This document shows positions 5,464 through 48,808 of a DNA stretch of 64,000 nt, one piece after another; the stretch's first letter is position 1, and the number at the start of each line of letters is the position of its first letter. Source of the DNA: Acidimicrobiales bacterium (GTDB lineage Bacteria; Actinomycetota; Acidimicrobiia; Acidimicrobiales; Iamiaceae). The DNA is taken from contig DASZTW010000007.1 in the NCBI GenBank assembly GCA_035547835.1, positions 262,955 to 326,954 of the forward strand, given 5' to 3'. The translations under genes were made by a program, and so were the position numbers. Below the pieces are notes generated by a model. It worked only from the letters and a program-made list of their open reading frames with translations, was not told where the DNA came from and ran no database searches.

Positions 5464-6537
5464 ATGCCGTCCTACCGCACCGGCCGCGTCGTGGCCTTGC
5501 TCTCGGAACGACCGGGCCTCGGTCGCTATGAAGTGGAGTTCGACCCGCCGCTGCCCACCGGCCACCCGGCGATGGCCTCAGACCGTGCTTACGCCCTCGT
5601 CGACGTGAGCGGTCCTGTCACACCGGGGCACCGGGTGCTGTTGAACACCACTGCGGTCGAGTTGGGCCTCGGCACCGGCGGATGGCACGTGGTGGTGTGC
5701 GACCTCGACCAACCAGGCTGGGTGCAGCCCGGGCCCGGCCACATCATCAAGCTTCGCTACACCGGGCTGCAGGTCGACACGGGCGCGGTGGACGAGCACG
5801 AGCCCCCCGATGCAAGTGGGACAGGTCGGCGCCCGCACCTCGACGGGCTCCCGGTTGCCGTCGGCACGTTGCACAGCCAGGTGCCCACCATCGCCGCTGC
5901 CTTCCACGACGCTCGACCCGACGCTCGCTTGGCGTACGTGATGACCGACGGCGCCGCGCTGCCACTCGCCTTGAGCGACCTGGTGGTCCAGCTGCGCTCG
6001 CTCGGCTTGGTTGACCTCACGGTCACGGCGGGTCACGCCTTCGGTGGGGACCTCGAGGCCGTCAACGTGCCGTCGGCCCTCGTGGCGGCTGCCCGCCACG
6101 GTGCCGATGCGGTCGTGGTCGCGATGGGTCCGGGGGTGGTGGGCACGGGAACACGGCTCGGCACCACGGCGATCGAGGCCGCACCCGCGCTCGACGCGGT
6201 CGCCGCACTGAGGGGCCGCCCCGTGTTCTGCGCCCGGTACTCGTCGAGCGATGCACGCGCTCGCCACGTCGGTCTCAGCCACCATGCGGCGACGGTGCTC
6301 GACCTGGTTCGCAGCGCTGTCGAGGTGCCCGTCCCACCGGCGATCGTGGGTGACCTCGCGGGGGTGGGCGACGGCCGGCATGACATCGTGGCGGTCGAAC
6401 CCCCCGATGTCGCGGCGTTGCTCGACCGCCACGGCTTGCACGTGACGACCATGGGCCGCGGGCCCGAGCAGGAACCCGAGTTCTTCGCAGTGTGCGGTTC
6501 GGTGGGTCTCCACCTCGCGTCGGCCGTCCCCACCTAG
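5464..6537 (+). CDS. DUF3866 family protein
   Basis: The protein has 357 residues. The first 110 residues resemble a small beta-barrel (GRVVALLSERPGLGRYEVEF) and the rest an alpha/beta fold with Gly-rich turns such as VVVAMGPGVVGTGTRLGTT (near 220-240) and FCARYSSSDARARHVGLSHH. That pattern fits DUF3866, a family of unknown function often found between pafA and pafBC in Actinobacteria. No signal peptide or membrane segment is evident, so it is probably cytosolic. No Shine-Dalgarno sequence precedes the ATG, and only 21 bases separate it from pafA. The link to proteasome or stress functions is by position only. Confidence 0.78.
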   Translation: MPSYRTGRVVALLSERPGLGRYEVEFDPPLPTGHPAMASDRAYALVDVSGPVTPGHRVLLNTTAVELGLGTGGWHVVVCDLDQPGWVQPGPGHIIKLRYTGLQVDTGAVDEHEPPDASGTGRRPHLDGLPVAVGTLHSQVPTIAAAFHDARPDARLAYVMTDGAALPLALSDLVVQLRSLGLVDLTVTAGHAFGGDLEAVNVPSALVAAARHGADAVVVAMGPGVVGTGTRLGTTAIEAAPALDAVAALRGRPVFCARYSSSDARARHVGLSHHAATVLDLVRSAVEVPVPPAIVGDLAGVGDGRHDIVAVEPPDVAALLDRHGLHVTTMGRGPEQEPEFFAVCGSVGLHLASAVPT

Positions 6538-7512: not shown

Positions 7513-8480
7513 CACGGCCAACGGCATCGGACCGACTCGCACGCATCCTCACCGTCCTTCCGTGGATCGCGGCGAATGACGGCCCTCTGATCGACGACGT
7601 GGCCGCTCGTTTCGGACTCGAGCGCGCCGGCCTTCTGCAAGACCTCAACGTCGCTTCGTTCGTGGGTCTCCCGCCCTATTCGCCGGACGAGCTGATCGAG
7701 GTGATCTTCGACGACGAGCGCGTGTGGGTCACGTACCCCCGAATGTTCGACCGACCCTTGCGGTTGACCAACCCCGAAGGGCTGGCGGTGGTGGCGGCTG
7801 GCGCCGCAGCGCGCTCGCTCCCCGGGGCCGACCCCGATGGCCCGCTGGCGACCGGCCTCGCCAAAGTCGCGACGGTCCTCGGGCTCGACCCGCAGGATCT
7901 CGACGTCGACCTCGGCGACGCGCCCACGGAGGCGTTCGACGCGGTGCAACGGGCCATCAGCGAGCAGCACCCGCTCGAGATCGAGTACTTCTCCTTCGGG
8001 CGCGACGAACGCACGACGCGGGTCGTCGAGCCGTGGCGCATGTGGTCCGACGAAGGGAACTGGTACGTGTCGGGCCACTGCCGCCTCGCCAACGGCGAGC
8101 GGGTGTTCCGGCTGGACCGGATCAGCAGCAGCCGAGTGCTCGACGAGGACTTCGAGATCCCGGCCGAGTTCGCCCCGGGGGTGGTGTTCAACCCCAGCCC
8201 CGACATGCCCCGCGTCACGCTCGATCTGTCGCCGCAGGTGCGGTGGGTGGTGGAGAACTACCCAGCCGATGCGTTCGAGGAGCGGCCCGACGGCTCGCTC
8301 CGGGTGGTGCTGGCGGTGACGGCACGACCCTGGCTCGAGCGCCTCCTGCTGACGCTCGGGCCGGACGCCACGGTGGTCGACATCGACGACCGTCTCGGCA
8401 GCCCGCACGTCGCCGCGGAGGCGGCCGCGCGGGTACTTCGCCGCTATGACGACGCGATAGCGTCCTCCGATCGTGACTGA
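7509..8480 (+). CDS. pafC: WYL-domain transcriptional regulator PafC
   Basis: The 323-residue product is the partner of PafB. Its winged helix (about 5-70) is followed by a WYL domain with EYFSFGRDERTTRVVEPWRM, WYVSGHCRLANGERVFRLDR and a WCX region ending in LRRYDDAIAS. The WYL core here reads W-Y-V, as in its partner. The start is the ATG sharing ATGA with the pafB stop; a longer frame opening at 6915 is only read-through of the other frame. Its last codons contain the -10 box and overlap the GTG of lepB by eight bases. Confidence 0.93.
   Translation: MTRPTASDRLARILTVLPWIAANDGPLIDDVAARFGLERAGLLQDLNVASFVGLPPYSPDELIEVIFDDERVWVTYPRMFDRPLRLTNPEGLAVVAAGAAARSLPGADPDGPLATGLAKVATVLGLDPQDLDVDLGDAPTEAFDAVQRAISEQHPLEIEYFSFGRDERTTRVVEPWRMWSDEGNWYVSGHCRLANGERVFRLDRISSSRVLDEDFEIPAEFAPGVVFNPSPDMPRVTLDLSPQVRWVVENYPADAFEERPDGSLRVVLAVTARPWLERLLLTLGPDATVVDIDDRLGSPHVAAEAAARVLRRYDDAIASSDRD
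8458..8463 (+). promoter_or_regulatory. -10 element of lepB inside the end of pafC
   Basis: TAGCGT lies within the last codons of pafC, 9 bases before the lepB GTG, giving a leaderless message. Confidence 0.45.
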
Positions 8481-10806: not shown

Positions 10807-13469
10807 TGGCACCGGTCAACCGCTTCCGTCACGACTTCGCACTCGACCCCTTCCAGGAGACGGCGTTCGCGGCGATCGACGCCGGGCGCTCGGTGCTGGT
10901 CGCCGCACCCACCGGTGCGGGCAAGACGGTGGTGGCCGAGCACGCCATCGACGTCGCCCTGAACGCGGGCGGAAAGGTCTTCTACACCACGCCGATCAAA
11001 GCCCTGTCGAACCAGAAGTTCGCGGACTTGCGCGCGGTACTCGGCGCGGACCGTGTCGGTCTGCTCACCGGTGACAACGCCATTCGGGGCGACGCGGACG
11101 TAGTGGTCATGACCACTGAGGTCCTGCGCAACATGATCTACGCCGGGTCATCGAACCTCGACGGCCTCGAGTTCGTGGTGCTCGACGAGGTCCACTACCT
11201 GCAGGACGCCTACCGCGGCCCGGTGTGGGAGGAAGTCATCATCCACGCACCACCGTCGATCCGGTTGGTCTGCCTTTCCGCCACGATCTCCAACGCCGAC
11301 CGTCTGGCCGCGTGGATCGAGACGGTGCGGGGCCCGACCGACGTGGTCACCGAGTGGCGGCGACCGGTCGCCCTGTACAACCACTACTTGGTGGCCGACC
11401 GGCTCGCCGACTCTCTGCAACAAGTGCCGACCCTGGTCGACGGCCGGCCGAACCCGCACGGCACCGAGTACGACTCCGACCGCCTGCGAGGCCCACGTGG
11501 CACGCGCGGTCGGCCCCGGCATCGCTTCCGCACGCCCCGCCGCCTCGAAGTGGTGGAACACCTCGACGACCGCGACCTCTTGCCGGCGATCTACTTCGTG
11601 TTCAGCCGTAACGGTTGCGACGAGGCCGCCCGCTCGGTGGTCGACGCGGGCGTGCGACTGACTTCCCCCGACGAGCGGCGACGCATCCGGGCGCTGGTCG
11701 AGTCCGCCACCGCCCACCTGTCGGATCACGACCTCGACGTACTTGGCTACGACCGTTGGCTGCACGGTCTCGAACAGGGCATCGCCGCTCACCACGCGGG
11801 CATGGTGCCGGCCTTCAAGGAAGCGGTCGAGAGCTGCTTCGTGCAAGGTCTGGCGAAAGCGGTGTTCGCCACCGAGACCCTCGCGCTCGGCATCAACATG
11901 CCGGCCCGCTCCGTGGTGATCGAGGCGCTCACCAAGTTCACTGGTGAGACCCACGAGTTCCTCACCCCAGCGGAGTACACGCAGCTCACCGGCCGTGCCG
12001 GGCGGCGTGGGATCGACGACGTGGGTCACGCGCTCGTGCTGTGGTCACCGTTCGTCGGCTTCGGCCAGGTCGCCGCGCTCGCGTCGAGTCGTGAGTTCGA
12101 GCTGCGATCGGCGTTCCGTCCCACCTACAACATGGCCGCCAACCTCGTACGTCGCTACGACCGTGGCGAAGCCCACCGTCTGGTGAACTCGTCGTTCGCG
12201 CAGTTCCAAGCCGACACAACGGTGGTGCAGCTCGAAGCCCGACGCGCGGATCTCACCCGCTTGCTCGCCCGGGCCGATGCCGAGGCCCAATGCGATCGAG
12301 GCGACGTCGAGGAGTACCGACGCCTGGTTGTGGAGGCCGCGGGAGACCACCGTGGCGCGACCCCGGCCCACATCGTCGACGCGATCGCGCGGATGAAGCC
12401 CGGCGACGTCTTTCGCGCTGCAGCGCCGCACGGACGCCTCGCCGTGCTGAGCGTGGGCTTTCGATCGGGCGGCGCGGTCAAGCTGCGCGCGGTCACCACC
12501 CAGGGACGCGTGCGCAACTTGACCGCCGACGACTTCGATCGGCTGCCCGATGTGATCGGGGAGATCACCCTGCCCACCCCTTACCGGCCGCACAGCGCCA
12601 GCTTCTGCCGGGAGGCTGCCGATGAACTGCGCCGCGCCCGGGTGCGCTCGGGCCGGCGGGGCGGTCCGCGTCCGTACGGCGGGAAGGGCCGTGGCGCCCA
12701 TCATCGACGCAGCCACGAAGACCAGCTGGACCATCCGGTGGCCCGTTGCCCCGACCGCGGCCGGCACCTCCGAGCGTTGGAGCGCGGCGATCGGCTCCGG
12801 CGCGAGCTGGCCGACCTCGACCGGCGCGTGGGCGGACACCACCAGTCGCTGTCAGCTCGCTTCGACCGGGTTCTCGAGATCATGGTGGCGCGGGGGTTCG
12901 CCGAGGGGTGGCAGCTCACGGAGCGGGGCGAGCTGCTGCGTCGCTTGTACCACGAGTCGGATCTGCTGGTCTGCGAGGTCCTCACCGACGGCATGCTCGA
13001 TGGTCTCGATGCCGACGACCTCGCCGGCCTCGCTTCATGCCTCACTTATGAGCACCGATCGCGGGTGCCGCCCGCGCCGCCCCGCTTTCCGAACGCACGC
13101 TTGCGTGACCGCTACGGCGAGATCGAAGCGCGGGCCAAGGCGCTGGTCGCTGAGGAGCTCACGCGCGACCTCCCCGCCACCCGACCACCGGATGCCACTC
13201 TGGTCGCCGCCACCCGCGCCTGGGCGAAGGGCGCACCGCTCGAACAGGTCCTCGAGCACGACGAGCTGTCGCCCGGTGACTTCGTCCGCAACATGAAGCA
13301 GCTGATCGACTTGCTCCGCCAAGTCGGCGAGGTCGCACCCGACGCCTCCACCCGCGACGCAGCCCGGGAAGCCAGCCGCCGCCTGTTCCGCGGGGTCGTG
13401 GCTGCCGCCGTCGCGCTCCCCGGCGGCGCGCACGACGATGAGCCCGATGCCGGGAGCGAGCCCGAATGA
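10806..13469 (+). CDS. helY: Ski2/Mtr4-like DEVH-box RNA helicase HelY
   Basis: The 887-residue protein is a superfamily 2 helicase. Walker A is APTGAGKT near residue 38, followed by TTPIKALSNQKF, the DEVH box near 122, motif III LSATISN, and motif VI QLTGRAGRRGID near 396. The middle and C-terminal parts (500-880) match the Mtr4-like winged-helix, stalk and helical bundle regions of mycobacterial HelY. Such helicases are thought to unwind structured RNA in decay or ribosome processing; the bacterial substrate is not firmly known. The ATG overlaps the tatC stop as TGATG, so the preferred start is 10806, not the 10734 frame opening. The tatC-helY order is conserved in Actinobacteria. Confidence 0.93.
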   Translation: MAPVNRFRHDFALDPFQETAFAAIDAGRSVLVAAPTGAGKTVVAEHAIDVALNAGGKVFYTTPIKALSNQKFADLRAVLGADRVGLLTGDNAIRGDADVVVMTTEVLRNMIYAGSSNLDGLEFVVLDEVHYLQDAYRGPVWEEVIIHAPPSIRLVCLSATISNADRLAAWIETVRGPTDVVTEWRRPVALYNHYLVADRLADSLQQVPTLVDGRPNPHGTEYDSDRLRGPRGTRGRPRHRFRTPRRLEVVEHLDDRDLLPAIYFVFSRNGCDEAARSVVDAGVRLTSPDERRRIRALVESATAHLSDHDLDVLGYDRWLHGLEQGIAAHHAGMVPAFKEAVESCFVQGLAKAVFATETLALGINMPARSVVIEALTKFTGETHEFLTPAEYTQLTGRAGRRGIDDVGHALVLWSPFVGFGQVAALASSREFELRSAFRPTYNMAANLVRRYDRGEAHRLVNSSFAQFQADTTVVQLEARRADLTRLLARADAEAQCDRGDVEEYRRLVVEAAGDHRGATPAHIVDAIARMKPGDVFRAAAPHGRLAVLSVGFRSGGAVKLRAVTTQGRVRNLTADDFDRLPDVIGEITLPTPYRPHSASFCREAADELRRARVRSGRRGGPRPYGGKGRGAHHRRSHEDQLDHPVARCPDRGRHLRALERGDRLRRELADLDRRVGGHHQSLSARFDRVLEIMVARGFAEGWQLTERGELLRRLYHESDLLVCEVLTDGMLDGLDADDLAGLASCLTYEHRSRVPPAPPRFPNARLRDRYGEIEARAKALVAEELTRDLPATRPPDATLVAATRAWAKGAPLEQVLEHDELSPGDFVRNMKQLIDLLRQVGEVAPDASTRDAAREASRRLFRGVVAAAVALPGGAHDDEPDAGSEPE

Positions 13470-14080
13470 CGATTCGCAGAGGCGAGCCGTGGGGGAGCGC
13501 GGTCGCCGAGGTGCCAGCCGAGGCCGTGGTGGTCACCGACGATCGGTCCGCCCGGCTGGCCGTCGAGGACGCGCTGTTGCGCGGCACGCCGCCGCCGCCC
13601 CTGGCGCTCCGTGCGGGCGATCTCGCCCGCACGATGGGTGCGCCCATGCCGAGTCACGCGCGACCCGACGGCGTGGTCATGCGCCTGCCACTGGATGCGG
13701 TGAAAGCGACGATCGACGGGCAAGAGCGCGTGTTCGTCGCCCACTTCGTGGCTCGGCGAGGTTGGTGGCGCGGTCCGGTGGTCGCGGCGATGAACGCCGA
13801 GTGGTTGGGGCGTTGGGACGTCGCGCCCCGATCGCACCCCGACGACGGCCTCGTCGACGTGCTCGAGGCGAACCTCCACCTGAACGACCGCCTCAAGGCG
13901 CGCTCCCGTCTGCCGACCGGCACGCACCTGCCGCACCCCTCCATCACGGTGCGCCGAATGGCGAGCGTCGACCTCGACTTCGCTCGCCCCCTCGACATCT
14001 GGCTCGACGGCGAGCGGCTCGGGCGCGCCACAGCTGCCTCCTTGACCGTCCTGCCCGACGCGCTGGTCGGCTACCTCTGA
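13466..14080 (+). CDS. Hypothetical protein with diacylglycerol-kinase-like C-terminal domain
   Basis: The protein has 204 residues and no Gly-rich kinase loop. The stretch from about 100 to 204, ending in DIWLDGERLGRATAASLTVL and PDALVGYL, resembles the C-terminal beta-domain of YegS/DgkB-type lipid kinases (the DGE and LP.AL patterns). The N-terminal 90 residues contain a stretch AVVVTDDRSARLAVEDALL but no recognised catalytic motif. It could be a lone lipid-binding domain. Coupling to helY through an ATGA overlap is clear. The assignment to the kinase-like fold is tentative. Confidence 0.6.
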   Translation: MTIRRGEPWGSAVAEVPAEAVVVTDDRSARLAVEDALLRGTPPPPLALRAGDLARTMGAPMPSHARPDGVVMRLPLDAVKATIDGQERVFVAHFVARRGWWRGPVVAAMNAEWLGRWDVAPRSHPDDGLVDVLEANLHLNDRLKARSRLPTGTHLPHPSITVRRMASVDLDFARPLDIWLDGERLGRATAASLTVLPDALVGYL

Positions 14081-47996: not shown

Positions 47997-48407
47997 ATGG
48001 ACATCGCCATCCACTCGAGCATCCTTCCCCACGAAGATCCCGAGGCGTCGCTCGCGTTCTATCGCGACATCCTCCGGTTCGAAGTCCGCCTCGACGTCGG
48101 CAGAGGGGCCATGCGCTGGATCACGATCGGCCCGCCCGATCAGCCCGACGTCAACATCGTGCTGTCGCCACCTGCCGTCGACCCGGCCATCACCGACGAC
48201 GAGCGCCAGATGATCGCCGACATGATGGCGAAGGGCACCTACGCCATGTTGCTGTTGGCCACCAAGGACCTCGATCAGACGTTCGCCGAGATCCAGCGTC
48301 ACGACGTGGAGATCGTCCAGGAGCCGATCGATCAGCCCTACGGCCTTCGCGACTGCGCGGTGCGGGACCCCGCCGGCAACCTCATCCGCATCCAGCAGAC
48401 CAGCTGA
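47997..48407 (+). CDS. Glyoxalase/bleomycin resistance (VOC) family protein
   Basis: The 136-residue protein has the paired beta-alpha-beta-beta-beta units of VOC metalloenzymes: HEDPEASLAFYRDILRFEVR and later CAVRDPAGNLIRIQQ. The substrate is unknown. AraC-VOC pairs of this kind are common in Actinobacteria. Confidence 0.88.
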   Translation: MDIAIHSSILPHEDPEASLAFYRDILRFEVRLDVGRGAMRWITIGPPDQPDVNIVLSPPAVDPAITDDERQMIADMMAKGTYAMLLLATKDLDQTFAEIQRHDVEIVQEPIDQPYGLRDCAVRDPAGNLIRIQQTS

Positions 48408-48522: not shown

Positions 48523-48550
48523 ACCGCCGATAATCTACGTTACGTAAAGT
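48523..48550 (+). other. Candidate chromosomal dif site (XerCD recombination)
   Basis: The 28 bases split into a left arm ACCGCCGATAA, a 6-base centre TCTACG and a right arm TTACGTAAAGT. This follows the actinobacterial dif pattern as I recall it: CCGATAAT, two variable bases, ACA, then TTATGTCAAGT. There are about three mismatches in the conserved positions. dif resolves chromosome dimers near the terminus through XerC and XerD. The site lies in a long intergenic region. Confidence 0.45.
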
Positions 48551-48711
48551 TATGCGTGCGGAAGACCGACGGCAGTCCCGGCTGCCGTCCCCGCTCCACC
48601 CCCGCGACAACCGGAATCTTGCCAGTGGTCGACGAGGCCCGAGGTGGATCGACCTCTGGCGACCTCGGGCGACCTGATCCCCCTGAGACCCGGCATTCGC
48701 GCACTCCTCGC

Positions 48712-48742
48712 GCAGAAGTGGCGACTATGCAACCACTTCTGC
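48712..48742. repeat. 10-bp perfect inverted repeat
   Basis: GCAGAAGTGG and CCACTTCTGC flank an 11-base centre. There is no T run close behind, so a protein-binding or recombination site is as likely as a terminator. Confidence 0.55.
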
Positions 48743-48808
48743 ACGAATCGGAACGTTTTGACGGAAAAGCCGGTCGAGTCCCCCGCACCGCTCACCCCTC
48801 GCTTGTAA

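Follow-up and report, generated by a model that had tools for sequence, protein, structure and literature searches.

Results

The analysed window, 64,000 nucleotides long, corresponds to G000:C7:262955-326954 in a 3.70 Mb Acidimicrobiales draft genome of 22 contigs that is 96.7% complete. The 28-mer ACCGCCGATAATCTACGTTACGTAAAGT (Table 1) lies there in an intergenic stretch of about 430 bases, and the genes around this stretch are ordinary, encoding Lon, an AraC-type regulator, a glyoxalase and an MFS transporter. The 28-mer consists of two partly inverted 11-bp arms separated by a 6-bp centre, which is the structure of a dif site, and the 11-6-11 layout reported in the initial annotation is present exactly as described there. 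The other symmetrical sequences that had been noticed close to the site are likewise real. The proposal that the site occupies the longest gene-free region of the window was not confirmed, since several longer gaps appear in the gene call, which is itself crude and unreliable.

Table 1. Features at and around the 28-mer, in window coordinates.
Feature	Position	Strand	Remarks
Glyoxalase-family gene	47997-48407	+	Left-hand neighbour of the site
Probable dif site, 28 bp	48523..48550	+	Only copy in this genome; single-copy motif across the order; lies opposite dnaA in five relatives with single-contig chromosomes
Left arm ACCGCCGATAA, putative XerC-binding arm	48523..48533	+	Arm assigned tentatively by alignment with known dif sites
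Central region TCTACG, putative strand-exchange region	48534..48539	+	Conservation in 27 related sites
Right arm TTACGTAAAGT, putative XerD-binding arm	48540..48550	+	Most conserved arm in relatives
Inverted repeat with 14-nt arms, GCAGAAGTGG-11 nt-CCACTTCTGC	48708-48746		Dispersed repeat
ORF of 136-158 aa	from 48842 (stop end)	-	Right-hand neighbour of the site; without Pfam match
Perfect 16-base palindrome TTCGTCATATGACGAA	49242-49257		Overlaps a putative start codon of the ORF above

Two of the neighbouring features merit description in their own right. The inverted repeat forms a hairpin that occurs in 12 copies in the genome, versus one for the control (at most three mismatches), and is also enriched in the relatives G021 and G014; with its partly conserved loop, it looks like a REP-type element. 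The palindrome, for its part, could be a self-regulatory operator of the minus-strand ORF that it overlaps.

The 28-mer is unique by two approaches. A degenerate 24-base core matched the window once, even with three mismatches allowed, and was found in none of 100 shuffles; in the whole assembly it again gave one match, at the 28-mer itself. A profile derived from 53 sites in relatives, with this site left out, recovered it with a score of 28.9 bits (E = 5.3e-6, 26 of 26 positions matched), and no second profile match was present in the 3.70 Mb assembly at E <= 1. The expectation that a dif site should be single copy per chromosome is thus borne out in an assembly of 96.7% completeness, and the profile search returned no better dif match elsewhere in it. 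The full actinobacterial dif consensus had no match in the genome with three mismatches or fewer, which explains why the initial annotation had to record deviations from that consensus; the known motif alone would miss the site that the 24-base core finds.

We scanned 119 genomes, this one included, with the motif CGCCSATAATNNNCGTTMYGTMAAGT, allowing at most three mismatches and using the reversed pattern as a control. The motif was matched in 71 genomes, this one among them, with exactly one copy in 69 of those, and the control yielded no match in any of the 119. In an alignment of 27 sites, the conserved block spans positions 3 to 28 and ends there, the flanks being unrelated between genomes. 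Positions 3-6 and 10-11 of the left arm are nearly invariant, the first base (T) and the last two bases (CG) of the centre are conserved at 93-96% while its other three bases vary, and the right arm has the consensus TTMYGTMAAGT, with the reservation that conservation within the core partly reflects selection, because the aligned sites were picked by positions 5-28. Positions 3 (C) and 4 (G) lay outside this first search pattern and are nonetheless conserved at 93% and 100%, respectively.

Relatives across the order thus carry the same motif as a conserved single copy. Many of the order's sites have a centre ending in CG, and TTACGTAAAGT and TTATGTAAAGT often occur as right arm, so that the supposed mismatches to the actinobacterial dif pattern, ACG for ACA in the centre and TTACGTAAAGT as right arm, are the lineage's own form.

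The motif is not universal. At up to three mismatches, 48 of the 119 genomes gave no match, the single-contig genome G054 among them, and the profile search found no site resembling this one in eleven of the relatives it covered, among which are G054 and several well-assembled genomes. Parts of the order must therefore use a diverged or different site, or lack one. The exact order-consensus motif was also scanned over 84,980 species; among the matches listed, no contig has more than one copy, and most belong to Acidimicrobiia, Acidimicrobiales or unresolved Actinomycetota, the others to Brachybacterium, Dermabacter, Kocuria and Arthrobacter as well as to a small number of records with the label Acidobacteria. 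The named relatives, too, are for the most part Acidimicrobiia or Acidimicrobiales, in agreement with the lineage supposed in the initial annotation.

The position of the site relative to the origin could be determined in five relatives whose chromosome is assembled as a single contig (the main contig of G010 being 5.14 Mb). There, the motif lies opposite dnaA, at a distance of 0.507 (G004), 0.452 (G010), 0.486 (G028), 0.497 (G016) and 0.509 (G110) of the circle. All five sites fall within 0.048 of the antipode, which by our own arithmetic has a probability near 1e-5 if positions are random. In a further relative, G033, which is assembled in two contigs and was left out of this count, the position is compatible with the terminus. 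The terminal location anticipated in the initial annotation is thus seen in the five relatives, at 0.45-0.51 of the circle from dnaA; the dnaA of the present genome is on another contig, and in this draft the placement comes only from the GC skew, whose sign changes within some 40 kb of the site.

On C7, the contig of 375 kb that carries the site, most of the first 270 kb has a positive skew, with a mean of +0.03 up to about 265-273 kb. From 310 kb onwards all 10 kb bins are negative, the site itself being at 311.5 kb. The cumulative skew reaches its maximum at 272.7 kb and the best single change-point falls at 264-273 kb, that is, 39-47 kb from the site rather than at it, a distance of about 1% of the genome. 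In the sampled relatives G004 and G028, and around the site of G110, the skew has no clear sign change; because it marks the terminus weakly or not at all in these genomes, it was given little weight. The proposed skew check shows an inflection near the site on its own contig and is uninformative in these three relatives. Motifs of the FtsK-orienting GGGNAGGG type had no usable polarity in contig C7.

The genome encodes the expected recombination machinery. In the family search, a 314-aa protein scored above the NCBIfam cut-off for XerD, and a second recombinase of 353 aa had XerC as its best family, at 296 bits against a cut-off of 335; the ORF directly preceding the latter is one that we take, from reading it by eye, to encode a DprA-like protein. 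An FtsK gamma domain was found at 94.9 bits. As judged from these family assignments, XerC, with its score below the cut-off, XerD and FtsK-gamma make up the classical two-recombinase setting. The xerD gene is at G000:C7:354120-354656 (L058), no more than about 43 kb away from the site; a recombinase gene of the xer type with a strong match is also found near dif in G004, G010 and G028, at distances of 87-115 kb.

One genus of the order, represented by two draft genomes, departs from the single-copy pattern, with about 12 dif-like sites in G094 (loci L088-L094) and at least six in G042 (L095-L100); the two other genomes of the same family have one or two dif candidates. The extra sites of G094 have longer shared flanks, nearly fixed arms and varied 6-bp centres. 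At L089, inverted dif-like sites at 5861 and 6898, about 1 kb apart, enclose a toxin of the Gp49/HigB-like type together with an HTH antitoxin, and next to the site at L088:5374 is a degenerate copy of the antitoxin end. On contig C67 of G094, the probable main dif (L091:11035) is placed between inverted repeats of ~430 bp (7788-8209 and 13080-13520) with segments 84-95% alike; each repeat arm ends in a dif-like site and carries a small coiled-coil ORF.

Discussion

The dif site lies near the end of chromosome copying, and it is there that daughter chromosomes which have become fused are separated by XerC and XerD. The uniqueness of the 28-mer, its conservation across the order, its position opposite dnaA in relatives and the presence of the recombinase and ftsK genes indicate that it is almost certainly the chromosomal dif site of this bacterium. 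By analogy with known dif/Xer biology, the left arm would be bound by XerC and the right arm by XerD. FtsK would bring both dif sites of a chromosome dimer to the septum at division, where its gamma domain could activate XerD; the exchange of strands over the 6-bp centre would then resolve the dimer into two monomers.

Two other readings of the 28-mer deserve consideration. If it were a dif-like target of an integrative element or plasmid-type cassette (IMEX/pdif) and not the working chromosomal site, the genome would need a second, better dif, and none was found in the 97% complete assembly. One genus of the order does have such additional dif-like sites, but here the 28-mer is single copy and has ordinary genes for neighbours, and we regard a mobile-element target as highly improbable.

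We give slightly less credence still to the idea that the 28-mer is a palindromic operator or a promoter element whose likeness to dif is accidental. Such an element might well be intergenic and partly symmetrical, as the 28-mer is, and other palindromes do occur within 700 bases of it; however, shuffles predict 0 chance resemblances, and the motif is conserved once per genome in dozens of genera among unrelated flanks, which in the relatives reveal no linkage to any one gene. An operator, moreover, would track its gene and not the terminus, whereas this motif lies opposite dnaA. The identification as dif is thus preferred, and the conclusion that this is an ordinary housekeeping dif, new only as a record for the lineage, is well supported.

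That record has some use. As dif, the 28-mer puts the window at the terminus of replication, and CGCCSATAATNNNCGTTMYGTMAAGT provides a usable dif consensus for a large and mostly uncultured order, by which dif can anchor and orient draft genomes and which exposes the odd genus with a multiplied site. A dif site for Acidimicrobiales has apparently not been described, as our search of the open literature found no paper pairing 'dif site' with 'Acidimicrobi'.

Modules flanked or marked by dif, one of them dif-higA-higB, are known from both the chromosomes and the plasmids of Acinetobacter (PMC12907356), and the multiple dif-like sites of G094 and G042, with their HigBA-type pair, resemble these. 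A plausible but tentative reading is that the order keeps a lineage-specific dif with a centre ending in CG, and that in this genus the motif may have been multiplied into chromosomal XerCD-type modules, one of them with a HigBA-type toxin-antitoxin pair. If true, this would be an Acinetobacter-like dif-module system in Actinomycetota.

The putative system described here is like the proteobacterial dif/XerCD system of the E. coli type (PMC2731167) in having two Xer recombinases, FtsK-gamma and one 28-bp terminus site, and unlike it in the sequence of the left arm and centre. The closer comparison is with the predicted dif of Frankia alni, CACGCCGATAATGCACATTATGTCAAGT, the actinobacterial seed of Kono et al. 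2011 (PMC3025954). Both sites are 28 bp long with an 11-6-11 layout, single copy and terminal, and they share CGCCGATAAT in the left arm and the start of the centre as well as the right-arm pattern TTA.GT.AAGT. They differ in the end of the centre, which is CG here and CA in Frankia, and in the right arm, TTACGTAAAGT here and TTATGTCAAGT in Frankia; both differences are common or dominant among the relatives within the order.
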